Of a stretch of 64,000 nt of DNA, positions 29,596-55,624 are shown piece by piece. Each line of letters starts with the position of its first letter. Within the stretch, counting starts at the first letter, position 1. Made by a program: the position numbers and the translations under genes. The notes under the pieces are model-generated. The model did not search any database and had not been told where the DNA came from. It saw only the letters and a program-made list of their open reading frames with translations. Source of the stretch: Anthopleura xanthogrammica (lineage: Eukaryota; Cnidaria; Anthozoa; Actiniaria; Actiniidae); contig OZ025222.1 in NCBI GenBank assembly GCA_964019055.1, positions 9,976,543 through 10,040,542 on the forward strand, read 5' to 3'.

Positions 29596-32305
29596 ATGGA
29601 TGAAGAAGAGAGGTAAGATATTGATGGTTTATGTCATTTACTTTCTTTAAAAAATTTAAAATGATATTACCCACTTATTATAATTGCTAAGATGTAATTT
29701 TACATTCTCCATTAATTTTGCGTCTGTGAGGTCATGTACATGCACTGGCATTGTACAGCTAGTTAATCAGTGCTCAGACTTGCTATCATATACTATGCAG
29801 GTGTCTACCTAGTTGTTTGTTGGTTTTCTCTTGTGCTTTGAGGGTTTTTCTCCAGGTTAATTCTCCAGACTTCCTCCCTGTTCACAAATCAAAATTCCTA
29901 TATTACAATTACCAGACTATATACTAATTAAGTGGCTTTATATTCAACAGGAATTACTGTTGCCTGGCCTTACTTCTGTTAAGAGTAGGGAATCCATGTC
30001 TGCGTCATTACTTAAAAAATCAGTGGGATGTTGCAGGAAAATACAGACCTTGGACTGACTGCGCCCAGAATGGAGCTGACCTGCTGCGGATGTTTAGGCC
30101 TCTTCCATATGAAAGAAATACAGTGCAATCTGGCGATACATCGCAATGGGACTTGTCTCTTTTTGTCAAAGCTCTTCTTCAATCACAGCCGCCATTTGTT
30201 GTAGCAGCTAATCTGGTAACAGCCCTTCAAACATTAAAAGAAATGCGAAACAAGTTGTGTCACTCTCCAATTCCAAGGGTTAAAGCTGCTGATTTCCAAA
30301 AGTCATGGATTGATGGATGTAATGCACTGAACTTATTTGGAGCTACCGTTGTGGACTTTGATAAAGTGAAACAAGGTGAGAGTGATATTTCAGACAGATC
30401 ACACCCAACATTCAATAATAAGAATATACACCTACTTCAATAAAGGTTGTCACAGCGAAAAACAACAAGTGACAAGCAACAAGCCAAGACCACCTGCAAA
30501 CAAAGTTTTAATTAGCTGAAGATTCGGGACAACACTTAAAGAAATGAAACAGTTGCAGCCTACCATTACAAAACGACTAAAATAATCGCCTCTAGATGAA
30601 TAAGGAGTAAAATGACAGATGTTCTTTGCGATCTTGTGTTGTTGCTTTCAGCTGCGACAACCTTTTTTGAAATAGGTGTATATATCAATCATTATTACTC
30701 ACATTCATTCATTTAGTCATTCATTTACTATCTCCATACCGATTAATACAGATATAAATGGATTAAGCCTGGCTAGCAGCATGTGTTCTGACACATCAGT
30801 GCTTAGCCATCTTTAATGCATGCAACAACAAAATCATTTGCATATTACACAGGTATCCCAAACCTTGCATACATTTATACGGTACTACAATCCATTCTTT
30901 CCTTTAGCAATTTAGAATGGGATAGAAAAAAAGAAAGGAACAGAACTGAATAGAACAGGAATAGAATGGAATAGAGTAGGAATACAGAATTCAGTAGAAT
31001 GGATTGGAATATAGAATGGAAAATACTGTATTCAGGGGGGGCTTATTTTCAGAGGGTTTCCTTATGAAAAGAATCAGGGCTTTCAGAATGCTTTGGAGTA
31101 GGTGTTCGTAAGTCTGAAGTAGCTGGCTGTGATCCAATAATTTTTTATAGAAAAACAAAAAGTAGCCCGCAGTTAACAATGAAGCCACCGACAATAGAAC
31201 AGAAGGGGATTGAATGTAACAGAACAGAATAGAATCAAATAGAATAGGAATAGAATGGAATATTTACCGATATTAAAGAAGTACGTGTTATGCATTTGAC
31301 AAGGAAAATAAAGGAAAAGAAGTTTGAATGGTTATGTATAAACATGTGGTTCTCTGATACACATATCTCTTTTCCCAAGATGTTCAAAAGCCATGGAGTG
31401 AACTACTTCCAATGATGAAACACTGTGCAGACCAAGACAAAGCCATTCTAGATGGACTGGGTTTAAGTAAGTTACGTCGTAAGGAAGTTGTTTTCTTTGC
31501 AATAAAAGTTGATACATGTATTGTAAAAATTTTATTTTGATATTCAAATAGTTAACAGCAAATTAGAACAACTACAGCAAGGACAAGACAGCATTGCTGA
31601 GGGTCAGTCCAAACTACAGCAAGGACAAGACACCATTGCAGATAATCAGGCTAAACTGCAGCAAGGACAAGACAACATGCTCGAAAAATTTACATCACTA
31701 AAGCAAGATGAGAGAAATAGTAAGAGAGAAATAGTAAGAGAGGAATAGGGAAAGATAGATGATATATTGTTATATGAAGTGGTTGGTATGGTGACTGTAA
31801 TGGTCCAGTCAGGTTAATGATTAAGATGAATAATGAAGATGATAAATTTATGGCAAGCACAATTATTTGTTTCAGGGGATGGGGAGTCTGCCATGAATGT
31901 TACATATAACACAACAGTTACAGACCATAGTAGTGCAGCAATAGGACCCAATGCATCTCTTACAATGTAAGTGACTGTCTCTTGATTGTGAACATTATTG
32001 TGATAATTCAACATCCATTCTTTATTTGTAACAATCTTCTCATAGTGATTGTTGTTCAGTAATATCATTAGAAGAAGTTTATTGTCAATTGTTCTATGTG
32101 GTTTCTTCTATGTTGGTATTTCTTTGACCCATCATCAGCCGGAATGTAAAAAGGTGATGGGTAGAGGACCTGAAAACTTGGGTGACAGAAACCAGATCAA
32201 ACAAGTGTTATGAAACCTTACATACCATGTTTGTTGACATTGTAAATATCAATTTCATTTTATTTTATCATAGACAGAACAAGTGATCAACCTGCAGAGC
32301 AGTGA
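29596..32305 (+). CDS. HEPN - coiled coil - RHIM-like exon set (short protein, or 5' half of NLR copy B)
   Basis: Exons: 29596-29612, 29951-30375, 31380-31466, 31552-31719, 31876-31966, 32278-32305. All junctions are GT/AG with fitting phases; the total of 816 bp gives 271 residues plus TGA. Residues about 7-147 are a HEPN domain of the DZIP3 type with RNKLCH (Arg105...His110), the R-x4-H signature of HEPN ribonucleases. About residues 180-225 hold a 14-residue (two-heptad) coiled-coil repeat LQQGQDSIAEGQSK occurring three times. Residues about 233-263 carry a RHIM-like segment, [16 protein letters not shown]. The last mini-exon is a shortened, shifted form of the NLR linker exon. Alternatively exons 1-4 or 1-5 splice on to 44308/44777/46091 and give a full NLR. 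The start is supported by ATG in exon 1 with a consensus donor. The short terminus rests on one chosen acceptor (AG 32276-32277). Confidence 0.7.
30424..30683. mobile_element. 260-bp inverted-repeat element in HEPN gene intron 2
   Basis: ATATACACCTACTTCAATAAAGGTTGTC is mirrored at the right end by GACAACCTTTTTTGAAATAGGTGTATAT. It begins 49 bp after the donor of the HEPN exon. Non-coding. Confidence 0.75.
30905..31265. repeat. Degenerate (GAATA)n-type simple repeat
   Basis: Two tracts of AGAATAGAAT/GGAATAGAAT words (about 30917-31020 and 31199-31265) in an intron of the HEPN gene. Confidence 0.7.
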
Positions 32306-32309
32306 ACAC

Positions 32310-32575
32310 CTAAGGTGTGAGTATCTAGGGGGTCCTGGAAAATTTTGGAAATTTGGACCTCTTAGAATGCATTTCCAGCATTCTGGAGCAAGAATTGGCA
32401 GAACATGAACCAAAGAAATGACAAACCAAAAAAAAAGGCCAGCCTAAAAATGGCCAACCACATTGAAAAAAAAACGCCAACTTAAGAAAAAAAAGCCAAC
32501 CTCTCAAAAACCGGCCGACCTAACAAAAAAAAAGGTTGGCACAATCGACGAGGGCTGCCCCCCTGGTTACACCTC
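32310..32575. mobile_element. Degraded GGCCAACC-rich element
   Basis: Contains repeated GGCCAACC/GCCAACTT words separated by A-runs and a C-rich end (CTGCCCCCCTGGTTACACC), like the interior and end of the element at 2521-2661. Limits are uncertain. Confidence 0.4.
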
Positions 32576-33666
32576 TCATTGGGGTATTTTACAAAGATGG
32601 AAACATCGTATATTTTTAGTATTTTTATTCTTTATTTAGACTTGTCCTGGTAACGAACCATTCCTGCAACAAACTGCAGAAATGAAATTTTTATTTATTA
32701 TTACTCGAATTTCAGGCAAGTTTCTTTAACGTGAATAAATCTGGGTTGAACCAAGATTCGTGTTCTCTGGCGAATCTTTCTGGCATTTTTCCTAAATTTA
32801 GGAAAAGCTTTCAATCAAAATAGGTGGCAAGTTCATCAGTGCGAAATACCCAGCGAGTTTTGCCGGCCACCGCTGCTATTGAAAACATTGATACAGCGGC
32901 CATCTTGAATTATGGGATGCTGGGGGGGCAAAATAATTTTTGAAAAATATATAGTATGTACAGCTGTCAGTGTATTATTGCCCTCTCGGCATCCCATGTC
33001 TTACTTAAAACAATAGAATACAAGTGGCTGCCGTATCGGTAAAAAGGCCCATTGTTTATTCTTTTTTTTAACTTCTAGCTCAAATATTATTGGTTGATTG
33101 ACAATTGTTTTTTTTTGGCATAAATATTGGGAAATTTACGAAAACATATACTAAAAAATTGAGAAATGAATGGGGATAAAATAACCCTTAAATTAGATAA
33201 ATATCCCATCAATTATTTCAAGACCCTTTTTTTCAGGGTCACTAAAATTTAGGCCCTCCCATTTTTCACCCTTCCTCTCCTCATTCAATAAATAATGAAC
33301 GGTCCCTAACAGCAATACATGTGGATCTCTAGCCAGCTGATCTGAAATAGTGACGTAGAAATGACGTCACTGCAAGAAGCCTGCGAAAATTGACTTATAA
33401 AAGTTTATATGCGAGATAAATCTAGATTTTCAGGAAAAGTTTTTGATATTTTACATACATTTACTATGATATTCATCCGTTTCACGATTCGCTGGGCTAC
33501 TAAGGATGATACCTCAGTTTTGCAAAGATTCTCGATTCTGATTGGCCAACATTTTTTGTCAGATCAGCTGGAGAAAGTGTTAATTATGTATGTATAACGA
33601 AAATCTTGCCTGGCTATAAGTGTGGGAATGCCAGTTTAGTTAATTTAGTTATGCCTTTTTTTATTG

Positions 33667-34230
33667 AATGGATGAATGAATAAATGAATGAATGGATGGA
33701 TGAATGAATGAATGGATGAATGAATTAATGGATGAATGAATGCATGTATGGATGAATGGATAAATGAATGCATGTATGGATGAATGGATAAATGAATGGA
33801 TGAATGAATGAATGAATGCATGTATGGATGAATGGATAAATGAATGGATGGATGAATGAATGGATAAATGAATGAATGCATGTATGGATGAATGGATAAA
33901 TGAATGGATGGATGGATGAATGCATGGATGAATGAATGAATGGATGGATAAATAAATGGATGGATAAATGAATGCATGTATGGATGAATGAATGGATGAA
34001 TGGATGAATGAAAGAATGAATGAATGCATGTATGGATGAATGAATGGATGGATGGATGAATGAGTGTATGCATAAATGAATGGATGAATGATGGATGGAT
34101 GGATGGATGGATGGATGAATGAATGGATGCATGAATAGATGGATGGATGAATGATGGATGGATGGATGGATGGATGGATGAATGAATGGATGCATGAATA
34201 GATGGATGGATGGATGAATGAATGAATAAA
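33667..34230. repeat. Tetranucleotide (ATGA/ATGG)n tract, third copy
   Basis: Longest of the three related tracts. It yields spurious minus-strand frames of up to 213 codons rich in Ile-His-Pro-Ser. Not coding. Confidence 0.95.
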
Positions 34231-34299
34231 TAAATACATTAATACACCAAACAGCAAACAAACGAACAAATAAACAAAAATATTAACGAAAAACACAAA

Positions 34300-35249
34300 C
34301 AATTTTAATAAACTACGTTTTAACTTGGAAATAAATTAATATATCGATAGATAAACAACGACAGATGATCAAAAAATCAAATTCGCTCTCCTTTTGAAGT
34401 TAGATAGGCCTTTATCAGATATAAATCTCTGTGTAGTTGGTTTTTGAAAATATTTTTCGTTTTCGAGAAAACGGCCAAAGAGTGTTTCGACCTGAGCCTC
34501 AAGTGAGAGACGCTCAAGAGGGGTCAAAATGGCAGAACTTTGATGTCTTAAAATTGTTGCACAGAGTTAATCTAGTACAACTGTAGATCCCGATAGATCC
34601 CGACAGCGGCGAAACTTTTGTTACCACTAGCTGTCGTTTCTTCTATGCCTCCCGAAAACCTAATTGACCCTAAATGCGGATTGGTACAATCAATTAAATC
34701 AATTAAACCTTTACTCAGTACAAAGTTTCTCGATATACCAAAGATACATTTATGTGTTTGTTTTCTGTAGCTTCTCCTTTCTTTGAGGGCGGTCTGAAGG
34801 GGTAAAACTGATGGGAGCTGGGATTCACCGTTTTTGAGGCTGGGAAAATGGGGTTTCATGCACTGGGACTGGAATTTAGCCATTACTGGGATTACAATTT
34901 TTTCTAGCTCTCCAACCCTAGCTCTATAATGCAACTAGACCGTCGCTATGCTAGCCGCGTTCACTCTGGCTCCTATGGAGAAGAAGAGGCGTTAGTAAAA
35001 CAGGGAATGACTGGGAATGGAGACCTAAATGAGAGATTATCAGTTCAAACATGTGAAACTGGTCATGGCGTCCAGAATGTTGTGTTTTTATAACGGGAAA
35101 TGTACCAAATTGAGTGCAATGGTTCACAAACGTCGGAAATATGTTTGAAAAAAAGGAACAGTCGGGTAATCAGTAGGTATTACTAAAATAGGAAATGGGG
35201 AATGATGAATGGAGACTGGGACATAGGTATTACACTGATACATGTTAGT
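34300..35249. other. No gene recognised
   Basis: A minus-strand frame of 120 codons (34572-34934) has no recognisable domain and lacks a counterpart elsewhere in the window. Otherwise nothing stands out. Confidence 0.4.
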
Positions 35250-36129
35250 TTAGTACATTGTAATTCCATTGTAACATATTGAATAAAGTGCGATAGCAAA
35301 ACACTGCTTATCAGCACAATAAATAATACCAACAGCTGTATATTCCACTGTTAAAATGAATGATTCAAAAGCTCTTTCTAGGGCCATAGTATAGTGATAT
35401 TCCTCAATTGTAGCATCCCCATGTACATTACCAGTATAGCTTTCACTGTATTCAAGCTGATAATTTTCCTCTAATACTGTAAGCATTGTTGGTAATTCTG
35501 TTAGCATCAGGAAGGACTATCCGGGCTAATTGTGACAAACTAGAATAGAGTTGATTTCCAACATCCATTATTTGCACCAAGTCTCTAGGGGAGAGTATTC
35601 CTCTCACATTGTAATATATCAAAGCACATAAACTCAATGCAACACATTGTTGTCCAGCATTTTGCCCAAATATAATAACATCCCCTTGACTATATGGTGC
35701 CCTTATTGTTTTACTAGGATCAACATGCATGGAGATCATGTACAGTGACAAGTAGTTACTTAGGTCCTTCTGTCCATGTGTACTTTCCCTCAAACAGCGT
35801 TTGTAACCACGATTGAAGGAATAGCATCGTTTTCGTACTTTATAATTTGGTTTTCTTACCCGTGTACGTACCAACCGTGCATAACTATTCCTTTACTTGT
35901 GACTTGGTCTATGGATTTTCGACGACTTTGGAGTGTTTTTAAGTATTCGTCTGCAAACAGACTTCCGTAGCTTTTTGCTTTCGTGAAAGAGACGTCCCAA
36001 CCTATTCAGTGGTATTCTGCTCGGTTCACAATCACGTCTATACCCATGGCATGTACACACAACACGATTGTAATTATAATATAAATACTTGGCATGACGA
36101 GATCTGAATTCTTTTACTATTATTCTCAC
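35250..36129 (-). pseudogene. Broken transposon-type protein with papain-like peptidase-like domain
   Basis: Three overlapping minus-strand frames (36129-35893, 35874-35452, 35507-35250) together look like one decayed protein of about 240 residues: a basic N-terminal part with CTCHGYRRDC, then SQGDVIIFGQNAGQQC, then SYTGNV and a C-terminal VGIIYCADKQCFAIALYS. The QGD..FG..AG.QC signature recalls a papain-like cysteine peptidase-like domain found in uncharacterised invertebrate mobile-element proteins and in some large DNA virus tegument proteins; this is from memory and not certain. The frame breaks near 35500 and again near 35880, so it is not functional as read. Confidence 0.4.
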
Positions 36130-36157
36130 TTTAAGATCATGTGTTATTATTAGATAA

Positions 36158-36835
36158 ATTAGGTACGTGTAATGTAGTAGATCTCTTAGTATGTTCTAGA
36201 TAAGATTGACTGTAAGGTTCTACAATACACAGTTTTGATCATGGAAGAGTTGAACTTGTAACTGTCTGATTTGATCGCCTGTAAAAACCTCATTTAACCA
36301 ACTAACCAGATAGGATAATGCTTGTAGGATAATGAAATACTAGAATATGATTACCAAGCGGTTTAGCTGGGCCTATATCAGTCGTCTGTTAACGAACAGT
36401 TTTGATCATCGATCGATCGAGGGACGCTATTCCCTGTTTGTCAGTGAAAGAAAAAGAAAAAGAGAGTCTTTCAGCAGGGAGGGAAGGGACGCTATAAATG
36501 TGGGTGTTGTCAGCATCTATACATGCGCCAGGCTTTAAACTTCGCCGCCATTTTGTTTGCGTTTTGAGCCGTGGTAGAAGTTAGTGGACGATCTAGGCCT
36601 GTTTAATGAATATACGAGAGAGGCCATCAAAGGGATTAGACAGTCTATCTGCATTTGTAGTGCTGTGGATGATTATTTTCAATGTGAAGCTCGTAGATTA
36701 CGAAATAATTAGGATCAAAGTCCGTCGAAAGAAGGAAAATGTTTCAAAACCACCTACATTCTTCCCGCAGGGTTTATACAAATCGAAGATGATTAAAAGG
36801 AATGCCTGCCAGTCACTGAAGTTTGTAGTAATATT
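36158..36835 (+). repeat. Flanking block X' (right copy), possible promoter-like sequence
   Basis: Counterpart of 26279-27200. It adds GCCGCCATTTT at 36544-36554, the inverted form of the YY1 promoter motif. It lies about 740 bp before copy B begins. Confidence 0.65.
36544..36554 (-). promoter_or_regulatory. YY1-type word GCCGCCATTTT
   Basis: Reverse complement of AAAATGGCGGC. In the left block the corresponding bases are lost (about 26962), so the site is specific to the right block. Functional use is inference. Confidence 0.3.
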
Positions 36836-37573
36836 TTGAAGCTTTGATACATTCTGTGAATTACAGTTGTCTGACCTGAGTCTATACGTATCAATAAAAT
36901 ATTTTGCTCTGTTTGGTATACTAAAATCTTAAGCTCATAAAGTTATGCGCCCGAGCCAACTTTGGCGAGTTTTGAGTAAAAAAATTATTCCTTTTTGTAC
37001 ATCAAATAAGCATATGTTCTACTTTCAATAAACTAACCATGAAGAAGAGTACATGAAGAAGATGTGGTTTATTGAGAACCAAGTTTGTTAGTAGCTAATT
37101 GAAACGAGGTTGACATGTTAACGACATCAATAAGGAAATCAAAGACCCGTAGTTTTCATGGGAGGAGAGAAGGGAAATTGTGAAAAAGAATTTCTTATTC
37201 TACTTTTTGGTCTTTTTTATCATCAAATTCTTGCAGGATTGAAGTCGTATTGATAGGATATTGATATTTCACAAACAATAATGAATGTCAATCTGCAGTA
37301 GACCCATAAGTGATGAGACAAATGCTTGATCGATCAAGAAGAAGAAGACTGTTTATTTAAACTATCAACCGTGATACAAACTATTTAGAAAGATGGATAA
37401 TAATTATCTTTATTGAATATTAATTATCCTGATGTACCCGTGTTAGTAATGTGCTGAAATAATGAAGTAAAGGTCGTTTGTGAATAGATAAAGATAAAAT
37501 CGCACCCATCGTTTTCATAACAGCGAAAAGAACTTATAATATTTTGTTTTGATGTGCCCACCCAGCCATCGTG
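36836..37573. other. Spacer before copy B, no gene recognised
   Basis: AT-rich, without long open frames, inverted repeats or recognised elements. Its left partner, if any, lies outside the window. Confidence 0.5.
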
Positions 37574-38209
37574 TTTATGTCTAAGTTACGCCACTGGAAG
37601 CCATATTTCGACAATATACAACATTCTAGAATATCTATATTTGTGAAACCTAACTGTATTATATAATATTGAATACAAAATAACACTTGAAATTGAGCAA
37701 ACGAACATCTGAACCACCAAACCCGAGACCTAATCTATAGAATATGTTGGGGCCCAGTTCTAGTCAGTTTGTTGTACATAAAGTTTTATCAGGATTTTTA
37801 ACAGTTCCTTTTCTAAATGACTAATGTATTTTCGTTGGTCTGATACAGTTAATAAGCTGATCTTCGAAAGATTTGTACGAGTTAAAGGAAACTGAAGCTG
37901 GAAAGAAGTGAAAGCGGAGTCTTGACCAACGTGGTTTCATTAAAGAATCCTCAAATTGAAACATTAAGGTAAACTAAATAAGGAACAAATTGAAATAAAA
38001 GAGGACTTTGCAGTTTAAATTAGTTTTCAACCTCCAATTGATTTTGAGTTGACGAGATTCGTATTTTCTAGGTATTGAAAGCTCAGCAGCCAAGGAATCA
38101 CAATACTGACAAATATTGAAATTGCAAGAAGTACCAGAACTAGCACCGCTACAGAGGTAAGCATACTAACTGCAAGTGAATTATTGAAATCATGTTTATC
38201 TACTGTAAC

Positions 38210-38536
38210 TGTGCAAACAATATAACCGTGAAACACAAAAACTATTTAGTCGAAATTTAGTAGAAATTAGTGAAAAATAGTCGAAGTGTGAATAGACTAA
38301 AATTAATTTAGTGTGCAGTGCAATCAGCCAAGTGTCCTAGCACACAATACGCAAGTAAAATCGTTTTGGAGTCTATTCGTTTGCGCTGCCGCAAAATCAA
38401 GACGCAATTCCACAATTATACGAAATGTATACAGTGCACGCATTCGCGGTTCAGTGATCACACTAAATTAACAATAGACTTATTTAGCAGAATTAGTTTT
38501 TGTTAATGTTTCACGGTTATATTGTTTGCACTCTAG
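38210..38536. mobile_element. Inverted-repeat element, copy B, left end eroded
   Basis: Partner of the element at 639-1063. The left end has lost the outer AGAG bases and the internal direct repeat occurs once. The right end (38507-38536) is unchanged. Confidence 0.7.
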
Positions 38537-38870
38537 CTAGTGTAAGCAGTTTATGTTGAAAATCAAGAAATTTAAGATGTTTCCGCACTGTTTTCAAACA
38601 ACCGCACCGAACTTTTTGAGCTGCCGTTAAACTAACTTTCCTTAGTTCAATTATTATGAAATTCATACAAGATATTCTCTTTAGATTGAAGAAGAAAAAA
38701 AATTCAAAATTTCAGCAAAAGCAGCGATAAACAAGAATATTCGAATTCAGCTAAGTCTCAAGTCTCAGCGATTACGACGGTATCTAAAAAAAACAATTCT
38801 GTTAAATGGCAAACAAAATATTTTGAGTAAATCGTAAAAACCTTTTAGATCTGAGATTTTGCATCCTTTG

Positions 38871-39004
38871 CATCCATCCCATCCATCCCATCCATCCCAT
38901 CCATCCCATCCATCCCATCCATCCCATCCATCCCATCCATCCCATCCATCCCATCCATCCCATCCATCTCATCCATCCCATCCATCCCATCCCATCCATC
39001 TATC
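38871..39004. repeat. 9-bp minisatellite (ATCCATCCC)n, copy B
   Basis: Shorter allele of the array at 1389-1687, about 14 units. Confidence 0.95.
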
Positions 39005-39115
39005 CAGGAGAAAGAAAAATAGAGTTAATAAACTAGTTCTCGATACTAAGAAGAAATTCTTTCAAAACCAGATTACTCCGGTAATTCCAAAATGACTTTG
39101 AACGACTTGAGAGGA

Positions 39116-39596
39116 AAGAAATCCAGTGCTACAGAAATTAAAGAAATGTAAATCGGTCCATCTGAATCAGTAACGTGTGCAAGTGAAATAGAAGATGTTT
39201 TGAATTCTCATTTCACTGAGATTGCTGCAAAACTCGCATCCGAAATTGATCTAGACTTGGGTGATGTAAGCCCAGACTATTTCATGAATAGAGTTGACTC
39301 AGTCTTTAGATCCTACGAGAGTACTGGATCTCTTAAATATCGTTAATGTCCTAAAAGCTACCGGCCTCGATGGAATTTCTAACTTTCTATTGAAAAGTGC
39401 AGCACCATTCATTCATAAATCATTAGCGGAACTATTCAATCTTTCACTCTCTAATACTTTTCCAGCAGATTGGAAATATTTTTAGATTTTCAATATTCTA
39501 CGGCCTCTAGGTAGAGCAAAATTAAGTATTATTTCTGTACTTAATATTGATAGAGCAACCGTGTTTAAATAAAGATTTCAATCAATCAATCAATCC
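39116..39596 (+). mobile_element. Internally deleted LINE fragment, copy B
   Basis: Counterpart of 1800-2280 with the same internal deletion and the same (AATC)n tail, so insertion and deletion predate the segmental duplication. Confidence 0.7.
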
Positions 39597-39836
39597 ATCC
39601 CACCAGAGATTCAAGAAGATAATCCCTGATCTCTGCATCGATTATTGACCATTTTTCTTTGGAATTTTTTACCTCTAATTATTATCCTCTGTTTTAGATT
39701 ACAGTTTCTTCAAATATTATACATTATTATAAATTTTCAGTTTCATGAGATATTTGTAAACTTTTAGAATTTCAATATTCTACGGCCTCTAGATAGAGCA
39801 GAACTAAGCAATGTTAATGTACAGAGTTGATAGAGT

Positions 39837-39977
39837 CAGGGGCGTAGCCAGGATTTTGCCTTGGGGGATCAACCAAAAAAAAAAACGGCCAACCATAAAT
39901 GGCAAACCAAAAGAACGGCAAAGACGATGGAGGAGGGGGCCCATCCAGGCTCCCTGGGCCCCCTGACTACGCCCCTG
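39837..39977. mobile_element. CAGGGGCGTAG inverted-repeat element, copy B
   Basis: Exact positional counterpart of 2521-2661, so its insertion predates the segmental duplication. Confidence 0.7.
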
Positions 39978-40530
39978 AAAGTAACCGTGCTTAATTAAAT
40001 AAAGGTTTTAATCAATCAATCTATTTATTCATTCATTTATTTTTGTCTCCATATTTCTTGTACAACTTCCCATATCTAACTGGCATTAAAATGGCTTCCA
40101 AGAATCTAATGTAAGTTTTATTCAACAGAAATAAACCTGATGGCAACTGGTTGGGCAGCAATTGGACTTCATCAAGAATCTTGAAGAATGGGAACAAACT
40201 GAGAAAAGCATATAAAGACCACTATCAAGAATAGTGAACAACGAGTGATGGACGAGCTAAAAGAAATGAAAGAAAAATTAGGTATCTACTGTTTTCTCTT
40301 TTTCCATTTTGATATGGCCGCTTAGAAAATACGATTTTTATCTTTTGATGAAAACTTCGACACTCAAAGACAAAATTGGCATTTCAACGCGCCTTTGTAA
40401 TTATGATCTTTTTAATAATGATGATGATGATATACAGAGTATTCTAGCATCTCTAAGCGTCTTGCAATAACTATAAAATTATATATATATATATATATAT
40501 TTAGTAAATAAACCCTTCCTGGCGGCTGGG

Positions 40531-40660
40531 ATATCGGCTGATAATGTCCAAGGATGAGAAATGGTCCGTAAAAAGAACATTTGGCCGAGAAGCGAAGCTT
40601 CGAGGGCAAATGTGATATTTTGAGGACCATTTCTCATCCAAGGACAATATCAGCTGATAT
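40531..40660. repeat. Hairpin element, copy B
   Basis: Counterpart of 3248-3377 with a few substitutions in loop and arms. Confidence 0.7.
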
Positions 40661-41641
40661 TATTTTATAACCCAACGACTTCACTGAAATTAATTCAGCA
40701 AACTGCATCGACTCGTCATCTCCAGAGTTTTCAAAAAACAATTCTCTCTCGTCTCCAAGCTGGATATAAAAACAATTATTTTGGTAAATGAAAGCTGTTT
40801 GACATTGAACTATTCTATTGTTTGACATTTGTTGTCGAATTCTTTGTTGGTTTTTAGTAGTTTATATAAAAACAATTTCGAAAACAAACCAAAAACTTCA
40901 TTCACGAAACATGGATGCTTACCATTGAAGACATTTACAGTATATTTTGTTGATTTTTTCGTGTTTCCTGGCGTAGTTTTCTCAACCAGTCTTTGTATTT
41001 TACTCTCACTTGTTTGTAAAAACCGAGTTTCTTTGTTTTCCGTGTTTTTTCTTTTCTTTTTTTAACGTTTTTACCTTCTGCTGGACGAATATCACTTCGG
41101 ACGGGGGATATCGCCTGATACCCGTCCTGCACGTGACCCATTTGAACCAATGACAGTGCGCGAAAATTCATCATTGGGTTATAAATCTACATATACAGCC
41201 TACAGATATCATTCCTGATATTTTTTTCAGAAAGCCCAAGTGATAGGCAACCCGAAAAAAATATCAGTGATGATATCCCATAATTTCTGATATACTTTTT
41301 GTATATATATCAGGAATATCATAATTTCTGCATATCGCTATACATATATAGATATAGATGTATATGTCTATACTGTCGGTAGAGTGCTCAATACATTAAA
41401 ATGTAGAGCATTATAAATACATAACGAATTACATAGGGCTGACAGAAGGCACATTCAAGCAACGATACACACAGCATAAGCTATCATTCCGAAACAAAAA
41501 ATATGCCAACAGCACTGAACTCTCAAAACATATCTGGAAACTTAAAGAAGACAAGAAGGACTGCCTATACACTATCAAATGGTCAATTAATTATCACCTC
41601 AGCAAGCTCATACAGCAACATTTCTAAAAAATGCAACCTAT

Positions 41642-43189
41642 CCCTGGTGCAAATCTTGGACAGGATCCTGCCAGGATCCTACCAGGATCTTACCAGATCC
41701 TGCTAAGGATCTTGTACAGGATCCTGTATCAATATCCTACAGGATCTTGTACAAGATCCTACCAGGATCCTACAGGATCTTACCAGGATCCTACCAGGAT
41801 CTTACCAGATACTACTAAGGATCTTGTACAGGATCCTGTATCAATATCCTACAGGATCTTGTACAAGATCCTACAGGATCCTACAGGATCTTGTACAAGA
41901 TCCTACCAGGATCTTACCAGGATCCTACTCAGGATCTTGAACAGGATCCTGATAGGATCCCTGTATCAAGATTCTACAGAATCTTGTACAAGCTACAGGA
42001 TCTTACCAGGATCCTACTCAGGATCTTGAACAGGATCCTGATGGGATCCCTGTATCAAGATTCTACAGGATCTTTTACAAGATCCTACAGGATCCTACAA
42101 TATCCTACTCAGGATCTCGTACAGGATCTTGTACAGGATCATGTATCAAGATCCTACAGGATCCTGTTAGGATCCTACAGGATGTTGTTAGGATCCTAGA
42201 CTAATCCTGTATACATTGCAGTAATTTATTTATAGTTTTCTAATTCGCAATATTATAAAAAGGTTTTATTTTTTTATTAAATAAAAATTAGAAATTCCAA
42301 AAAAACAAAAACAAAAGAGTACAAACCCAACATTTTTTTGGCCTCAACCTCCCCTCCCGAGTTCTCTTCTATTTCCCTACCTCCTTCTACTCTACCACCC
42401 CTCCCATTCAATGCTTGCACCCCTCCCCACTCTGTTTTACTAGTTATTATTATTATTTCATTATTTTATTTTTTACTTACCTCAGTGGGGCTTGAACCTC
42501 CAACCTTTGGCTTACAAGCCGAACACTTTACCAACTTGACCATTGAAGAATTATTAAAAGAATCACCATACATTTGCATTTTATTTATGACTTTCAATTC
42601 CATGATGTCATTGAAGTGATTGAAATTCATGCATGCTTTGTAGTAGCAAGATATTACCTCTGGATCCTACAGGATCCTACCCAGGATCCTGTTCACACTC
42701 AATTAGGATCTTATTCAGGATCTTAATTAAGATCTTTTACAGGATCCTACAGGATCCTACCCAGGATCCTGTTCACACTCAATTAGGATCTTATTCAGGA
42801 TCTTAATTAAGATCTTTTACAGGATCCTACCCAGGATCTTGTTCACACTCAATTAGGATCTTATCCAGGATCCTAATTAGGATCTTTTACAGGATCCTGA
42901 TCAGTGCTATATTTTAAGATCTTACATATGCTAGGATCCCATCATCTCCTAGTTTTTGACTCCATTTTAGGATCCTATCTAGGATCTTATACATGATCTT
43001 ATTTAGGATCCTAATTCTTCTTAGGATATTACATAGGAATTAATGTAATGCAAGATCCTATTCTTATGCAGGATCCTACCTAGGATCCCAACTAGAATCC
43101 TGTTCCTAAGCAAGATCTTACTCAGGATCCTATTTCTAAACAAGATCCTATAGGATCCTACAGGATACTGTGTAAGATTTGCACCAGGG
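41642..43189. mobile_element. Terminal-inverted-repeat element filled with GATC palindromes (copy B)
   Basis: Same ends and same insertion site as 4173-5232 but about 490 bp longer. The extra length is additional AGGATCCT-type blocks on both sides of the unique middle, showing that the satellite part changes length quickly. Confidence 0.8.
42480..42542 (-). repeat. tRNA-like SINE head, antisense (copy B)
   Basis: Counterpart of 4701-4763 with nearly identical sequence. Confidence 0.5.
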
Positions 43190-43440
43190 ATGTCTAACAG
43201 AAAAACTCCAAATTATCAAAGCTGACAAAGCCAGCCTCCTAAACAAAAAGTCGGAGCTAATTTCTAAATGCCGACACGAAAACAAGTTTTATCTGGTAAA
43301 CACCTACTGCCGAATAACATGACATATCAGACATCAATAGGTCAACGAGACAACTCATCGAGTTAATGATATAACAATAGATTAATAGAACAATAGCGCC
43401 ATATATATGAATTATAGTAAGGATTATTCTTCATTAAAGC

Positions 43441-43480
43441 CTGTTTGATGATCGCGTAAGCGTGAAACTCCGAGTAACAG
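43441..43480 (+). ncRNA. Hammerhead-like motif with mutated core (copy B, first)
   Basis: Counterpart of 5487-5526, but the first core base is T (TTGATGA), a position essential for hammerhead activity. Stem I CTGT/ACAG and stem III are intact. Predicted inactive. Confidence 0.5.
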
Positions 43481-43619
43481 CAAAAGTGATGTACTCTTTA
43501 ATTTATCTTTAATCTACAATTTATATATATATATATATCTGGATGTGTCTTCTGACGTTTAAGTGCTCAATACATTGTAGAGTGTTATAGATTATAGATT
43601 ATAGATTTAAGATTAAAGA

Positions 43620-43659
43620 CTGTCTGAAGATCGCATAAGCATGAAACTCCGAGTAACAG
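43620..43659 (+). ncRNA. Hammerhead-like motif (copy B, second)
   Basis: A second copy 179 bp downstream, absent from copy A. Stem I CTGT/ACAG, core CTGAAGA (the fifth core base may vary), GAA, stem III ACT/AGT with CCG loop. Stem II is again imperfect. The DNA just before it (about 43565-43590) repeats part of the Penelope flank at 3911-3945, as expected for tandem Penelope ends. Confidence 0.5.
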
Positions 43660-43776
43660 CAAAAGTGATGTCTTGTCTTTGATCTATCTACAATCTATAT
43701 ATATATATATATATACCGCAATATGCAGAAATTATGATCCTCTTGATATATATACAAGTATATCAAAAGTATATTT

Positions 43777-43883
43777 AACAATTAGTCCTCGAGTCCGAAT
43801 CGTCTACGAGTCAATAGCCCATGAGACCGAAGGCCGAATGGGCTATTGACTTGTAGGCCATGAGGGCGAGAGGTCTAATTGTT
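43777..43883. mobile_element. Short palindromic element (copy B)
   Basis: Counterpart of 5669-5775, essentially identical. Confidence 0.6.
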
Positions 43884-44307
43884 TTAGTAAAAACCTACTA
43901 ATCGGTCCAATAAAAGGATGCAAAAAGTTTTGGATTTTGCTTTAAATATTTTTTTTTTGGTTTTCAAAACCGGCGCTTTTCGCTACTAGAGGTCTATCAC
44001 TAATAGACCCCTAGTAGCTCAGCCAATCACAGGGCTCAAGCTTACAATTTACTATGAGTGAAAACATGAAATGTAACGGTTTGTTTGTCCTCATCAGTAG
44101 CCCTGATGAAGACTTTTTAATAAAGTCGAAAATTTGGCTGTAAAGGTTTATTATCCAGCTTTTTGATAATTTATACATTGATTCTGGGAAAACGTTAAAC
44201 ACAAAGAAGATTTTGAAGATATATATATATAAGGCTTTATCAGTTTTGATAAAGATAACAATATGATGTTGATAAATTTATTGAAAGCACAGATTATTTT
44301 TTTTCAG

Positions 44308-47300
44308 GGGATGGACAGCCTGCCTCGAATGTTACATATAACATAACAGTTACAGACCATAGTAGTGCAGCAATAGGACCCAATGCATCTCTTACAAAGT
44401 AAGTGACTGTCTCTTGATTGTAAACATTATTGTGATCATTCAATAACATAGTTCTTTATTTGTAACAATCATCTCATGGTGATTGTTGTTCAGTAATATC
44501 ATTAGAAGAAGTTTATTGTCAATAATTGTTCTATCTGGTTTCTGGCTATGTTGCTAATTCTAACAATAATTGTTACCCAAGCTTTTAGGTCTTTGACCCA
44601 TCATCAGCCGGGATGTAAAAAGGTGATGTTGGCATTGGTAAAGGACCAGAAAACTTGGGTGACTGTTAGAAATTTGAATGAAAAGAAACCAGACAGAACA
44701 GATATTAGGAAACCTACAATGAAAGCCTCAAGTTTGATGACATTATAAATATCAATTTCATCTTATTTTATCATAGTGTTGAGAGAACAAGTGATCAACC
44801 TGCAGAGAAAGATATCTCATCAAGAGCACTAGGTAAAGGCCAACTCTTGTGTTTGTAACAATTGTTCATTTTCCTTTCACTTCGAGCTCAAATGCAATCA
44901 CAATTGATTAATTGACAAAATTGATTTTGTTTCAATATTATGAAATGTACAAAATTATATACTAAACAATTTAGAAAATGAATGGAGATCAAATTCTAGT
45001 AAAAGTCAAATAGTCAATAACAAATAATTAAGTGACTGTTCATTATTCATCTGAGAGGGGGTATGGGTTAGAAAAGAGAAAAAAGGCTCTCCTATATATA
45101 ACTCATCCATTATTTCAAGACCCCTCTTTACAGGGTCACTAAAATTTAGGCCCTCCCATTTTTCACCCATCCCCCCTCCCTTCAATAAATATGAACAGTC
45201 CCTAACAGTGATAAATGTGGATCTCTACAAAGTGTAAAGTTTGTAAATATAACGAAAATCTTGCCTGGCTATAGACCTTATGCAAAACCCATAAATGACG
45301 GGAAATGAGGATTACTTTACTAGTATTGTTTTCCACTCAGGAGCTGGTCAGCTCCTAAAGTCATAACAGCCAGCAGTCGAAATCATATGCTTAGATTAGT
45401 ATTTAAGCAGAATTTGAGTGCTCTAGCATAAATACTAGGGAAGTTACAGCAATTTAAAATTAGAAGGATTTGTATGTAACTGTGCACACTTACTAATTCA
45501 CTGATGGTATTTCATGTGAAGACAAAATATCTTCTCAATTCAAAATATTTCAAAAATGTTTTTCTAACCTTTTCCTTTATGCACATTAGGAGCAACCGGT
45601 ATTGCATAAGGTCTATAAGTGTGGGAATGTCAGCATTGTAAATATTTCGTAGTGCTTTTTTGAATGGATGGATGGATGGATGGATGAATGGGATGGATGG
45701 ATTATGGATGAATGGATGGATGAATGGGATGGATGGATGAATGGGATGGATGGATGAATGGGATGGATGGATAAATGGGATGGATGGATGGGATGAATGG
45801 ATTATGGATGCATTATGGATGGATAGATGCATGGGATGGAGGGATGGATGGTTAGATGGATTATGGATGGATGGATGGGATAGATGAATGGGATGAATGA
45901 ATACATAAATTAATGAATATGATAGGATGAATAGATAGATAATTGAATAGATAGATCAATAGATGGATAGATAAATGTGAAATACAAAACCCATAGTTTT
46001 TAACAGTCCAATGAAAAAAAACTCACATATTTAATCCTTACCTTGTCTTCCTGTCTTTTGATTGTTAAATTGTCGTGTTTTTATTTTCAGAATATACAGA
46101 AAAACTGAAGTCATCCATTAAAAAACAAACCGATTTTCTGTTGGCGGCCGAGGAAGAAGACAAGAAAATTAGAACCGATGACATCTTCACGAATGTGACT
46201 ATCCAACGTGGCCAGAAACAATTCAAGGAACCCGAAGCTAAAAAAAGGAGATATAGCAGGAGGCAAATGGATGAAGTTCCAGAAAGTAGAACAACACTGA
46301 AAACATGTTCAGAGATGTTTGTTTACCCAGAAAAAGATCAGAAACCCACAGCTTCTGGCACGACCAATCCTAAATCTATCTTGTTGATTGGCAAAGCAGG
46401 GATCGGAAAGTCTCTGTTTTGTCGGAAGCTGGTGCGGGATTGGTCAGACAACAAATTGTTTGAGAAAAGTGAAGAAAAAGCCAAAGTACCTGATTTTCAG
46501 TTTGTATTCCTGTTGACATTACGTCAATTTCTTCTTCCGGAAGAAGAAAAAGTTGATTTGCGTGATATCTTAAATAAGTCCTCCCTCTTAGACGAGCATT
46601 CAGCTGTGGATGAGCCATTACTGCAGTATATCATTGAAAATCCTGAGAAGCTAGTCATAATTCTTGACGGATTTGATGAGTATAAACATCGAGAGAAAAT
46701 CACCGGGGACTTTGAAACAAGATACCCAAACAACCCTCATGAGAAAATCCCTGTTCCTGCTCTGTTAGCCAAAATCATGAAAGGCAAGATGTTAAAAGAG
46801 TCAGTGGTTGTTGTAACTTCAAGGCCTGGCGAAGCAGAGGAATTAAAAAAAATTATCTTTGATGTGAGATGTGACATTCAAGGATTTTCTTCGCCTCAAG
46901 TTGTGGATTACATTAAAAAATATTTTAAAGAGAACGAAAGCATGAAGAAAAAAGTAATTGATCAAGTGGAAGCCAATGAAATTCTTTTAAGTTTTGGCCA
47001 CATCCCCGTGATGTGTTATTTAATGTGCTATTGTATTAAATGGTACATGACTGAATCAAAAACCACAGATAAACTACCCGTCACAAGAACAGAACTTTAT
47101 CATGAAGTCATCAAACTATTTATCAAGAAACATTCCTCTTCTAAATATGAAGAAATGGAAGAAACTAAAGTACAAGAAATATTACATAAACTAGCTGAAC
47201 TAGCGATGAATTTAATGATTGAAGGAAAATATATTTTCGAGGAAAAAGAAATGAAAAAGTTCAATTTTAAAGAAGAAGAAATTACAAACCTGAAAGCGAG

Positions 47301-48132
47301 TGGATTACTTGACTGTTGTCCTGGCGTTAAAAAATGTCCATCCGAGAAACCACCACTTGAATATACCTTCACACACCTAACGATACACGAGTATCTTTGT
47401 GCTTATTCGTTTGTAGAGAAAAAAGAAATACCGAAGGAAGAAGAAGCAAGTGCAGTGACGCTTGAGTTTGTAGCGGGGATTTTGTCAACAAAAAACGATG
47501 AAAAACTGATGGAAGAATTGATAGAAAATATCAAACCAGAGAATGAAGAGGATGATAGGAATAAACTGCTAACTTTATCCTGTCTGTACGAGTACAAAGA
47601 CGATGGATTTTCTACCAGAGTAATAAATAACCTTAAACACATATACTGTCGTGAGTATGGGGGGATTGGATTTAGTGATATAACTGATATCGATTGTTTG
47701 TACATAAGTTATTTATTAGATATAGTGAATTTAATCAACGCAGAACAAACTAAACAACATCTAACATCTACACAGTCATTTATTGTTGATGCATTGTACA
47801 TTAGTTGGTCATCTTTATCAGCATCAGGGATCAGAATGTTGTGTAATTCTCTTGTTAGTATTTCTACTGTTACTGAACTGGGGCTGTGGGGTTGTAAATT
47901 AGACGATGAATGTGTTGTAATAATATCTAACATGTTGTCTGGTACTAATATAACTGACCTAGACCTAAGTCATAATAAGATAACAAATGATGGACTTCAG
48001 TGTTTGTATTCAGTGTTAAAAACTGGTGATTGTCGTGTAAAAGTGTTAGACTTAGAGTTTAATGATGAAATAACTGTTGAATGTAAACAATGGGCAAGAC
48101 AACAGATCCCTGATGTTAAGTTGTATATTTAG
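44308..48132 (+). CDS. NACHT-LRR receptor (NLR), copy B, 3' exons
   Basis: Exons 44308-44398 (RHIM-like), 44777-44832 (linker) and 46091-48132 (NACHT-LRR, stop TAG). Walker A reads GKAGIGKS where copy A has GKGGIGKS; Walker [11 protein letters not shown] and the [14 protein letters not shown] block are unchanged. The phase of 44308 accepts the coiled-coil exon ending at 31719, and 44777 accepts the RHIM-like exon ending at 31966. So the full gene can run 29596-48132 and encode 961 residues: HEPN, coiled coil, RHIM-like, NACHT (Walker A near 382, Walker B near 470), LRR. The first two exons here are nearly identical to those of copy A, but the LRR region differs by 17 residues. A polyadenylation signal AATAAA lies about 50 bp after the stop. 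Confidence 0.85.
45274..45613. mobile_element. Complete inverted-repeat element with TATA target duplication (copy B)
   Basis: Ends GACCTTATGCAA / TTGCATAAGGTC, each preceded or followed by TATA. The truncated third copy of the region has an unoccupied site GGCTATAAGTG at 33612-33622, which confirms the limits. 340 bp, non-coding. Confidence 0.8.
45661..45910. repeat. Tetranucleotide (ATGG/ATGA)n tract, copy B
   Basis: Shorter counterpart of 7350-7725. Confidence 0.9.
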
Positions 48133-49122
48133 ATGAATCTAACTTAAGCTTATTTATGTAAAAAAAAGACAATGAACCAATAATAAACAAGTAGACAATA
48201 ATCTGTTTTTGTAAATAATAACATATTTTATTGAATAATAAAGAAATTGTTGTAGTTTTATCTTTGTAGTTGATTGAAATGATTCTTGTTTTACTCAACA
48301 AATATTCAAACAAATCCATTGAAAATCAAAAATATTTCTTGACAAATGACCAGTAGTTTGATATCAATACAAGTACAAGTTTGTTTTCATCAATATTTTT
48401 ATTCAATCAAGTTAAAGGAGACTTTTTTCATCAAATAAAGTCATTTTTCTTCATATTATGAACAAGTGAGTTGGACTTGAAACACGAACAACAGAAAAAA
48501 TATTTGTTTTCTTTGTCAAATCAAAATATTTGCCATCCAAATGAAAGAAACCATCAATATTTATCCTTATTTTAGAGCATTTGATTGATAAAATAGTATT
48601 TTGAGTTGGTTTTGTTTTGTTTTGAAGTCAACAAAAACTTGTGGTGAAAAATGGCGGCAAATGATGGTTTGTTTTGTACAAGACTTTAGTTGAACATGAA
48701 CGAAGAAAACACTACACGACTAATACAAGCTGGAATAATACGAATAAATCAATAAATAATTCTAGCCTAATGTGGTTCAATAATCATAGTTATCTAGTTT
48801 TATTTTCAATGTGAAGATCAGCAATAATTCAGCTCACCTCAGTTTATTCACTTGTCTTTGTTCAGCTCACCTCGACTCTGAAAGAAAATAAATAACGTGG
48901 ATATTTAGAACAAATTCTTTACTCAAAAACAAGACGTCTACAAAACAAACTTTCCTTGTGGTTTTGGTTTTTCTTTTCCTGGGTCTTTTTACATCAGATC
49001 AAAGAGGACAAAATACTGACTAAACGAAGGTCTTGACTGCGGACATTTTCCAGTTTGAGATTCTCGAAAAAAGCGAATTTTTCCCCAACTTTTCTTGATT
49101 TTTCCAAACAGATGTCAATAAT
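48133..49122. other. NLR copy B 3' region
   Basis: Nearly identical to 10047-11033; I count three differences in about 980 bases. It has the AATAAA signals and the YY1-like word at 48648. No other gene. Confidence 0.6.
48648..48658 (+). promoter_or_regulatory. YY1-type word AAAATGGCGGC (copy B)
   Basis: Counterpart of 10562-10572, identical. Confidence 0.35.
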
Positions 49123-52046: not shown

Positions 52047-52052
52047 AATAAT

Positions 52053-53773
52053 TCAGTAGTTGAGGTATTTTCTTTCAATGTGGTTGGTTGTGTAAGTCAG
52101 TAAACTGTTGGGAAGAGAGCAATAATCCAGTAGAAATTCTTGGTTGATGAAGAACAAAAAACAAAACCAACTTTGAAAAACTGAAAACCAACAAGTCACG
52201 TGATGAAAAGAGCGGGAAAATAATCATCGACGCTGATTGGTTCATGTTGGTTCATGTCAGGTTACTTGAACCAATCAGAGAACATCAATTATCATAGAAT
52301 GAAAAATATTATTCATCGTGGAAATGTAATCAATGATACTTTATCCGTTTGTCTCACGATTGAGGGTCATTTGTGGAAAGGACCATGACGTTTTGACTGC
52401 AAGCAGCTTGTCTTCATTTCGAATGGGTTTCCTTGCGGTCACAAAACAGGGAAAAAACAGCACAGTTGTGGCCAGCTTTGATTAGCTGAGGATTACGTCA
52501 TCGTTTGATAGAAGAATTCTATTGGTTGATAGAATTCCTCTCTAAAAATCATTATGTGAATATGAGTGTTGCGTGGACACAGAATGTTGGACCGTAGAGC
52601 TATGTTGTTCCCAAAATTTAAAAAGATATTTTTTATATTAAAATGCATTCCTAGGGGTCTGTTCATTATTAACATTGAAGGGGGGCTGGTGCAAATGGGG
52701 CGGATGAAAATTTTTCAGCCATGATATAGTGGGGATGGTTTTAATTTTTAAGATCAAGAAGGGGGGATGCACGGCGCGCGGAGAGGGAGGGGCTTGGGGG
52801 GGAGGGCTGAAAAAACTCCAGTCCTGTGCTCACCCCCCCCCCCCCCCCCCACTTTCAAGCTTGCTCCACAGGCCCTGGGATGTAAGTTTTTACATAAGTT
52901 CTCAAAAATAAAGATAGTCCAAAGCTGTCACTACACAGTTATTATATCCAGTGGTTTTTATGAGTTTGCAGGGTCTTTTCATTTGTTTGGTGAGGAGGGG
53001 GGGGGGGGCTTCCTTCTTTCTTTATGAGAGAGGGAAGAAGCCAAGATATAATTAGAAGGGCAATATAATAGTCCACATATATGAACGGAAGAATAAGGGT
53101 CCTAGGCACCAAGAACAAGACGTCGAATGCGCACCAGAATCACACCAGACAGCGATATGGGGCGAGTGATTATGAAATAGCATATGTTGATAGTGTTTGT
53201 ACTGATGATGCAAACGAGGAAGAAGACGAGAAGGACGAAGACATCAACAATGATATAGCTGTGGAGGATTTAGTCAGTTGTATGTATATTTCAGAGTAAA
53301 ACACTGCGAATTGAACTTTACTCGTATTATAAAATATGCCTAGATAGTTGACATATTGGCAAGTTCTTTCCAAACACAGAGTACCTTAATAATATATCAT
53401 ATATGAACAAATTTTATTTTGGGGAGAGGGGGTCGAACCAGCCTCCTCCTCTAATGTCAACAATGAATTGTCCCTAAATTTCGTCACTATGATGTAGCGC
53501 GCTCCCTTCAATTTTCGATCCAGTTCAACTTGATGTATTTATTTGGTTATTTCTGTGCAACATAATAAATCAAAGTCATTTTGATGTTGCGGTTTGACTG
53601 TACTGCGCCCCCTTAATATTCATGTTATCCGTGAGGGCATGGGGTGAGTATAATTCCTAGTCCTCCTCGTTCATTACAGGTTGTTATAATCAACAGGTTT
53701 ATTTCGAAGGAATTCCAAAACATCCAACACAAAAAACACCCCAAACCATCCTCGATCTCCTTGATAACCCACC
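52053..53773. other. PTDSS upstream spacer, copy B
   Basis: Counterpart of 11034-12748: poly-C and poly-G runs near 52833-52850 and 53000, the 72-codon frame at 53081-53299, no other gene. It differs from copy A by a small GTTGGTTCAT duplication near 52246 and a few substitutions. Confidence 0.55.
53081..53299 (+). CDS. Hypothetical 72-codon acidic open frame (copy B)
   Basis: Identical in translation to 12056-12274, with the same caveats. Confidence 0.2.
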   Translation: MNGRIRVLGTKNKTSNAHQNHTRQRYGASDYEIAYVDSVCTDDANEEEDEKDEDINNDIAVEDLVSCMYISE

Positions 53774-54598
53774 ATGGCCAAGCTAAAGGAGTCTACTAAG
53801 TGCACATGTACTTGTAGACAGTGCTGTTGTAAGAGTTCTATGGATAAAGTCAGGACATTAAGTGAGCAGTCGACAGTGAAAGCCAATGGGAGAGGAGACC
53901 TTGTTGAACGACGCCCTTTTGCGATTGCATGTGAATGGGATCGCAAACAAACACAACAGTTCACTGATGATGGCACGAATACCTTTTTCTGGTAGGTTTA
54001 AACTGTGTTATTGAGCTTTCACTCACAGAAAACTGATCGTTGAAGGAAGTCCTTCTTAATATCTTGGTTTACACGCTTATTATTGTAAACAATTTGCTAT
54101 TAACACTTCAACTTCAGCTCAAATTAGCTCATAAACTCTTCTCATTGAATTATTTTACTATATAAGATTGTTTTAACCTTCTACATGATATTATTATCAA
54201 TAACAGCCTTACTCCAATCAATTTGTTCTCTATCTTCGAGTCATATAAAATGGAATAAATAATCTTAATACTAGTATAGTCGTTGCATATTGCAAGTGAA
54301 GTGCTGCGAGTCTGTGTAGAATGACTTGTAATTAATGATATCTAAGTGATTGATCAGTTGTGGCTCCTACAATAACATACTAGTTATCCATGGTAATCCA
54401 TGTCTCTTCATGTCATTCATTTGTTATGGTGCAGCTGATAAAAATAATACTGATCAAGTAGTAGTATAGCTGTCTCTAATTAAAAATTATTACAACAGAA
54501 AAAGAAATTGCTATAGTTATATAAATATATACAAATAGACTCAGCTGGCTTTTAGAAAGATAGAAATAACTCAAATAAAATATGCTGATCACAGGCTA

Positions 54599-54746
54599 AG
54601 ACTTTTTAGACTTAGACTTAGACTTTTATTTATTCACACACATTTTAAATATTACATAAGGTTACAAAATGCAACATGATAGAAAAATATATATATATTA
54701 CATCTGAATTTACAAGTGCTAAGCAGCTGGGTCATGCGAGTCAGCA
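54599..54746 (-). mobile_element. LINE 3' end with (AGTCTA)n tail, minus strand (copy B)
   Basis: Counterpart of 13813-13960. Confidence 0.55.
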
Positions 54747-55624
54747 GTTAGCTGGTAGTAGATCTTCCTCAGCAAAGACATGATCAATCTTGGCCACCGT
54801 CCATTATTCAATCGGGAAACCTTGAGCACACAAAAGCAACGAAAATCTCATAAAATAACATCGCCTTCCCAGTAAAATGTCATTAAATTGTTTGCAAACT
54901 TGACTAATGGCTTCCAGCAATAAATAAATTTAAGTTAAGTTCCAGCAATAAATAAATTTAATATTCACTCTGGTAAATAATTGTTAAATATAATTTGCAA
55001 TATAATACGATTATTTGTTAGGTCCTGTGATATATAGAAAAACTCTAATAACTACTCATTATTTAATTACTAATAAAAATTGTTAAAATATGTACACATG
55101 ATATTAAATGTCAGCTGAGCAATATCAAACAAAGATTTCTTAAATAGATAAGTTTTATGACAATGACAGCGGAGCACCCTTAAAAGTCGGGAGGGAGGGG
55201 GCTAGGATTGGAAACTATAAGAGAATAGTATGCAAAAGGGAAAAGGTGGGGGAGGATAATTAGAGCCCCTATAGCCCCCCGTCTCAGTGGTCCCTGTGTG
55301 ATAAGATCCAGAAATGAATTCCATGTGTGTGAAGATTATACTTGAAAATACAACAGCCTTTTATTAGATTTCAAGATATATATAATCATCAATAAATATC
55401 TACTGATAAATATCTTATAGTAATAATGGGTGTATCTTTGTATGTAAAAATGAAAGAAAAAGTCTCCAGTTGAAACGCTTTGTTTAATCTTATCTCCAGG
55501 CAAGCACATACCATCACAGTACTTGTGGGGATGCTTTCTGTGCTTGTATATGTTGCACATTGATTGAGTCAACGCCGATGAACAGTCAGTACAATACCAA
55601 AAGGTATTCTATATTAATATAAAA

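Follow-up and report, generated by a model that had tools for sequence, protein, structure and literature searches.

The stretch of DNA analysed here (the window) comprises 64,000 nucleotides (nt) from the sea anemone Anthopleura xanthogrammica (contig OZ025222.1, positions 9,976,543 to 10,040,542 of the forward strand, referred to below as part of contig C19). Its principal feature is a predicted gene of seven exons at 29596..48132, all on the plus strand, whose product would join a HEPN head to a NACHT domain and leucine-rich repeats (LRRs). An earlier note, made from the sequence letters alone, had proposed that one gene at this locus unites HEPN, coiled-coil, RHIM-like, NACHT and LRR modules. 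With the exception of the RHIM-like segment, this union is borne out by the splice model, by a paralog and by annotated relatives, and the gene model appears to be right as far as sequence can tell.

Gene structure and the NACHT-LRR end

A splicing script recovered the seven proposed exons, with all internal boundaries at AG/GT and exon 1 starting at its own ATG. The junction phases (2, 1, 1, 1, 2, 1) are compatible, and the joined exons run through 2886 nt to one terminal stop, encoding 961 amino acids whether exon 5 is taken at 31876 or at 44308. The tiny exon 1 (29596..29612) provides the start codon and the residues MDEEE, and it is supported by a protein start, MDEEERNYC, that is identical in three proteins of the sea anemone Exaiptasia diaphana (P0008, P0052 and P0108). 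Exon 2 (29951..30375) encodes the putative DZIP3-related HEPN domain with the motif RNKLCH, as judged from the splice model, the family alignment and profiles. It is followed by a linker (exon 3, 31380..31466) and by exon 4 (31552..31719), which holds about 2.6 copies of a coiled-coil-like repeat of 14 residues (LQQGQDxIAexQaK, hereafter the QGQ repeat). The short conserved exon 5, the segment previously called RHIM-like, is present as two alternative copies, 5a (31876..31966) and 5b (44308..44398). Both copies start in phase 1 and end in phase 2, so that they cannot be used in series, and behind 5a lies a degenerate copy of exon 6 (at about 32270) in which a stop in frame precedes any donor. 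A second linker (exon 6, 44777..44832) leads to exon 7 (46091..48132), which encodes the NACHT domain, a winged helix region and a few LRRs and ends in the stop codon.

The profile check suggested for NACHT gave a clear result, with a Pfam match in exon 7 at E 7e-29 (101.2 bits against a cut-off of 26.7), and the nearest relative of this region in the PDB is NLRP3 (E 3.3e-29). The exon 7 product also has a weak Pfam match to NOD2_WH. The proposed LRR module was recovered through a PDB search, in which residues 848-959 match the LRRs of ribonuclease inhibitor (E 3.6e-12), although the one Pfam stretch, to LRR_6, scores 22.4 bits and falls slightly under its cut-off of 23.4.

The copy number of the QGQ repeat differs widely among paralogs. 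The window has about three copies, a locus on contig C9 has about eight (L047, 3035-3373), and a locus at 7.09 Mb of contig C18 has about 20 as judged by length (L015, approximately 1-960), one of which contains a stop; the repeat is also long in Exaiptasia. Length-tuned oligomerisation is a possible explanation.

The HEPN head and its union with NACHT

An R-x4-6-H motif is taken as defining the HEPN superfamily. The R-x4-H motif reported earlier for exon 2 is indeed present, as RNKLCH, and it is conserved. In an alignment of 25 HEPN places, from which L013 (internal stop) was excluded, the arginine is invariant (25/25), the asparagine and the histidine are kept in at least 90%, and R-N-x3/4-H was read by eye in all members except L017 (24/25). 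The HEPN_DZIP3 family (PF18738) is matched at E <= 0.01 by 18 of these 25 members, the best at 7.4e-7, and HEPN_Swt1 is matched by five. Profile-profile comparison with hhalign relates the exon 2 family, at 97.0% probability, to five DZIP3-type HEPN segments of NACHT proteins from Actinia and the stony coral Oculina. The HEPN_DZIP3 check that had been suggested for this exon thus gives support at the level of the family and not for the window copy by itself. That copy lies below the threshold, and its identity as a HEPN domain is established through its relatives. A search of the PDB with the family profile yielded no match below E 0.57.

HEPN does join NACHT in relatives of this gene. The earlier note had allowed that the HEPN exons might never join the NACHT exon, and this is contradicted by the splice of a paralog and by annotated Exaiptasia proteins. 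In the paralog L039, about 147 kb away on C19 (9.86 Mb), exons 2, 3, 4, 6 and 7 follow one another on a single strand inside 4.4 kb of sequence. Spliced in this order, they stay open for 1968 nt (with exon 7 counted up to the end of the sequence obtained), and exons 2, 3 and 6 have the same lengths as in the window (425, 87 and 56 nt). The same exon order recurs in L040 (C19, 9.20 Mb). At the C9 locus, HEPN is followed by exons 3, 4, 5 and 6 in order and by NACHT further on, and a locus on contig C2 has HEPN (60% identical) with exons 3, 4, 5 and 7; the splice-through was carried out in L039, and the other three loci were read by exon order, the ends of exon 4 being indistinct at C9 and C2. 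The best named relatives in the databases come from Actinia tenebrosa (60-74% identical across the portion covered), Exaiptasia diaphana and Oculina. Head and NACHT stand in one annotated protein in P0008, P0009, P0010 and P0052 of Exaiptasia, and the match to the query extends over 96% of it in P0008 and 98% in P0009.

The genome searched amounts to 289,826,900 bases in 125 contigs and holds at least 85 NACHT places and at least 43 HEPN rows, five of which are exon 3 pieces. Of the 17 closest HEPN places, 13 are followed on the same strand by a NACHT match 1.9-16.4 kb downstream, against a mean of 0.13 and a maximum of 3 in 2000 draws of random placement. This comparison excluded 21 more distant HEPN places, mostly on long open exons, near which no listed NACHT match was seen by eye.

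Two annotated relatives have unexpected compositions. The Exaiptasia protein P0108, named Exosome component 10, combines this HEPN head with the QGQ repeat and an LRR-like end; the name seems to result from misannotation or from a fused gene model. P0001 of Actinia tenebrosa, a close relative of the NACHT-LRR exon, has a different front, in which HEPN_DZIP3 is matched by two stretches and DED and TRADD-like domains are matched weakly, and this points to an exchange of front ends.

The fifth exon and the array of NACHT cassettes

Exon 5 looks like a real but optional module on the sequence evidence. We measured 13 copies, eight on C19, two on C18 and one each on C14, C9 and C2. When the acceptor is chosen, blind to frame, as the YAG with the best pyrimidine tract, all 13 have splice sites, with GTAAG as the donor, and every length is 1 mod 3 (61 nt, 79 nt in two, 85 nt in three, 88 nt and 91 nt in six). 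A cruder rule that takes the nearest AG gives other lengths for seven copies (80, 80, 80, 28, 68, 76 and 76 nt, four of them not 1 mod 3) and leaves two without the core. The copies share ancestry and are therefore not 13 independent tests. By eye, 11 of the 13 lie upstream of a same-strand NACHT exon at most about 9 kb away, the exceptions being 5a, with its degenerate exon 6, and L043, after which no NACHT is listed. Exon 5 occurs together with this HEPN head at three places (the window, C9 and C2). It is absent from the close paralogs L039 and L040, which is why we regard it as optional; in L039, exon 4 measures 145 nt, and its phase-2 end connects straight to exon 6. Most copies share the pattern VTYNITV-x5-[VAFI]A[IV]G. 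For the distant copies L044 and L045, there is no nucleotide match to the window at exon 5 or in the introns (threshold 1e-10), and the peptide was found by tblastn. One or the other half is lost in the C9 copy and in the copy of unit D, the last of the four cassettes described below, where an in-frame exon of 61 nt (L062, 4030-4090) retains the second half of the motif (NAEVGDNASRT).

This small conserved exon between front end and sensor is apparently undescribed so far. Residues 222-276 have no homolog at E <= 10 among 34 database candidates (proteins of about 529-1682 residues sharing exact words), and the peptide gave one meaningless match in the PDB (E 0.12). In prokaryotic genome contigs, 15 stretches matched the pattern and none was confirmed by tblastn. 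Among the open-licence papers listed, a part of those that matched, no title or abstract opening presents a cnidarian NLR exon of this kind.

The proposal that exon 5 is RHIM-like found no support, and we reject RHIM membership for two reasons: the core glutamine is missing and the window copy scores at chance level. The RHIM core tetrad is [VI]-Q-[VI]-G, and glutamine is retained by every natural tetrad tested in PMC12119088. The tetrad of exon 5 is AAIG in the window. Its second position is alanine in 11 copies and glutamate in unit D, and the core is lost in C9, so that glutamine is absent from all 12 copies that keep the core. No Pfam family, RHIM included, was matched at E <= 10 by six exon 5 peptides, in a search whose HMMER filters drop most weak matches. 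We also scored cores with BLOSUM62 against those of RIPK3 and RIPK1 (two cores, taken from PDB chains), using the 119 proteins of the database search as background. The window core AAIGPNASL scores 13, which is matched or exceeded by 144 of 105281 background 9-mers. In the window's own protein, two 9-mers outscore this core and two tie with it (a tie for third to fifth). Paralog cores score better: VAVGDNACI of L044 is matched or exceeded by 2 of the 105281, and the corresponding counts are 10 for L050 and 55 each for C2 and L045.

The downstream half of the gene belongs to a tandem duplication of a NACHT cassette, consisting of exons 5-7 and their flanks. Unit A (1..23689) is homologous to unit B (37574..64000), which holds exons 5b-7 of the HEPN-NACHT gene, and the two are 95-99% identical outside simple repeats. 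Cassette A has, on the plus strand, copies of exon 5 (6202..6292), of exon 6 (6668..6729, boundaries by eye; 6 nt longer with the frame kept) and of exon 7 (8005..10046, an open NACHT-LRR frame). No HEPN exon was found in the 16 kb upstream of this cassette (6202-10046), including 10 kb before the window (L041). Among the matches listed, the plus strand of C19 has no HEPN row except the gene's own, and cassette A is therefore headless or starts otherwise. Two further cassettes, C and D, follow downstream of the window, giving four on the same strand (C19:9984834, 10022920, 10057067 and 10078241) with a single HEPN head among the matches listed, placed before cassette B. This arrangement could be a shared-head array or a set of headless genes.

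All four exon 7 frames are open. Over the first 500 residues, the ratio of nonsynonymous to synonymous divergence (dN/dS) is 0.47-0.76 in the six pairs, and at the LRR end it is 1.26-63 in all six, values that rest on 0.2-7.2 synonymous differences per pair. Such a pattern would be expected of a sensor surface that is under diversifying selection. Two further features lie in the duplicated units. Unit B, but not unit A, contains a stretch of about 2.9 kb (49122-52047) whose minus-strand frame of about 900 amino acids matches an endonuclease (PF14529) and a reverse transcriptase (PF00078). With an ATCTAC repeat at the 3' end, it is probably a recent retrotransposon of the type without long terminal repeats. 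A 57-bp satellite array is repeated with the duplicated unit (21877-23689, about 32 copies; 62616-64000, at least 24).

Proposed mechanism and relation to known systems

We consider it probable that the gene is a member of the anthozoan HEPN-NACHT-LRR receptor family, in which HEPN heads paired upon release by a ligand would cut RNA, and its function is likely to be that of a ligand-gated receptor of the RNase type. At rest, NACHT and the LRRs would keep the protein closed. A ligand at the LRR end would free NACHT, which would then oligomerise with the help of the coiled coil. Oligomerisation would pair the HEPN heads, and their R-N-x3-H motif could then cut RNA, either the host's or an invader's, as the immune output. 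Where it is present, exon 5 may add a strand-turn-strand (beta-arch) element that aids assembly or contact with a partner. We know of no test of the output of anthozoan HEPN-NACHT receptors, although there are dozens of them.

Several observations weigh against this interpretation. Scanned alone, the window head reaches E 0.13 with HEPN_DZIP3 (12.5 bits against a gathering cut-off of 27), and no family is found for it at E <= 0.01 in a one-by-one scan. A structure model of the HEPN domain from six sequences is all helical and poor (a predicted local distance difference test score, pLDDT, of 62.6), and Foldseek and VIA-align returned mostly globins and no HEPN; given the quality of the model, these fold matches mean nothing. 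L017 has lost the asparagine and the histidine of the motif, a stop adjoins the motif in L013, and exon 7 of L040 has a frame break, so the family also includes decaying copies. In addition, for four of the 17 closest HEPN places no NACHT partner is listed, and the LRR-end ratios draw on very few synonymous differences. The loss in L017 would also suit a catalytically inactive HEPN domain that serves as an adaptor or as a head for RNA binding and signals through protein contacts rather than RNA cleavage, and the domain of coral proteins has been called RNA-binding (PMC10236652). We consider this alternative somewhat unlikely, since the motif is otherwise kept throughout the alignment even though identity to the window drops to 22-30% in the most distant members.

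Other explanations concern the remaining parts of the locus. Exon 5 could be a true amyloid signalling motif, either a RHIM family member or something analogous, and could template a downstream effector in the manner of fungal NLRs. The conservation of so short an exon ahead of NACHT, its shared pattern and the high rank of the L044 core speak for this idea, which we nevertheless find improbable in view of the chance-level window core, the lack of glutamine and of any Pfam match, the absence of the exon from L039 and L040, the half copies in C9 and unit D, and the fact that no partner protein was found. It is similarly improbable that the HEPN head and the NACHT cassettes are separate genes, or that cassettes B, C and D share the head by alternative splicing. 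The four same-strand cassettes with one listed head would fit such an arrangement, as would the retention of exons 5 and 6 ahead of exon 7 in each of them, but head and cassette follow closely upon each other in L039, L040, C9 and C2, and cassette A cannot share the head in cis because it lies upstream of it. The near identity of the units and the single occurrence of the head-bearing spacer could even reflect an assembly artefact, with two haplotypes placed in tandem and the gene a decaying copy. This is very improbable given at least four cassettes, synonymous divergence (dS) of 0.02-0.07 between them, a retrotransposon in unit B only and four open exon 7 frames.

The HEPN-NACHT-LRR receptor that we favour has several known counterparts. 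Its likeness to prokaryotic STAND/HEPN defence proteins, as drawn in the earlier note, remains an analogy: in a PADLOC search, neither the HEPN exon nor P0010 gave a match, and the NACHT exon gave a single weak one (E 0.0016 over 35 residues). Vertebrate NLRP3 and NOD2 share homology in NACHT and winged helix with the exon 7 product, and their head is a PYD or CARD, not HEPN. The four Exaiptasia proteins named above (annotated as NLRC3-like, NLRP14-like, uncharacterized and NOD2-like, in order of number) have the same HEPN head and NACHT. P0008 and P0009 also have the QGQ repeat, which is shorter in P0052, and LRRs occur in the longer proteins. They differ from the window gene in that no exon 5 segment is seen, and the repeats and LRR ends of P0008 and P0009 are longer.

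The combination of HEPN and NACHT in anthozoans is already known and is not new. In nine cnidarians, no domain accompanies NACHT more often than Dzip3-like HEPN, and there are 17-83 fusions per anthozoan (PMC8260672); many N-terminal DZIP3-like HEPN domains occur in coral NACHT/NB-ARC proteins (PMC10236652), and HEPN co-occurs with other cnidarian immunity domains (PMC8195603). The window gene resembles the Dzip3/hRUL138-like receptors of PMC8260672 in the fusion itself and in belonging to a large family, sea anemones included. It differs in a HEPN domain too divergent for the Pfam model and in exon 5, which goes without mention in the available part of that paper. With the RHIMs of RIPK1 and RIPK3, the fungal PP motif and the bacterial BASS3 motif, exon 5 shares a short, beta-prone segment with a hydrophobic-glycine core, and PP and BASS3 motifs are found within or beside NLR genes (PMC7889193, PMC12261475). 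Unlike them, it lacks the core glutamine and the asparagine at G+3, and the window copy scores no better than chance. It would be a long shot that this strand-turn-strand segment, found in sea anemone NACHT genes on five contigs and with a HEPN head in three, is the receptor side of animal NLR amyloid signalling, in which case a single receptor could combine RNA cleavage with the seeding of a partner. Should exon 5 turn out to be a signalling amyloid, this would be relevant to whether RHIM is the sole one in animals, as PMC7889193 asks. The series in which the exon is absent (L039, L040), present (the window, C2) or halved (C9) offers a natural comparison for what it adds. The locus combines a known receptor architecture with one mildly novel exon that is worth following.

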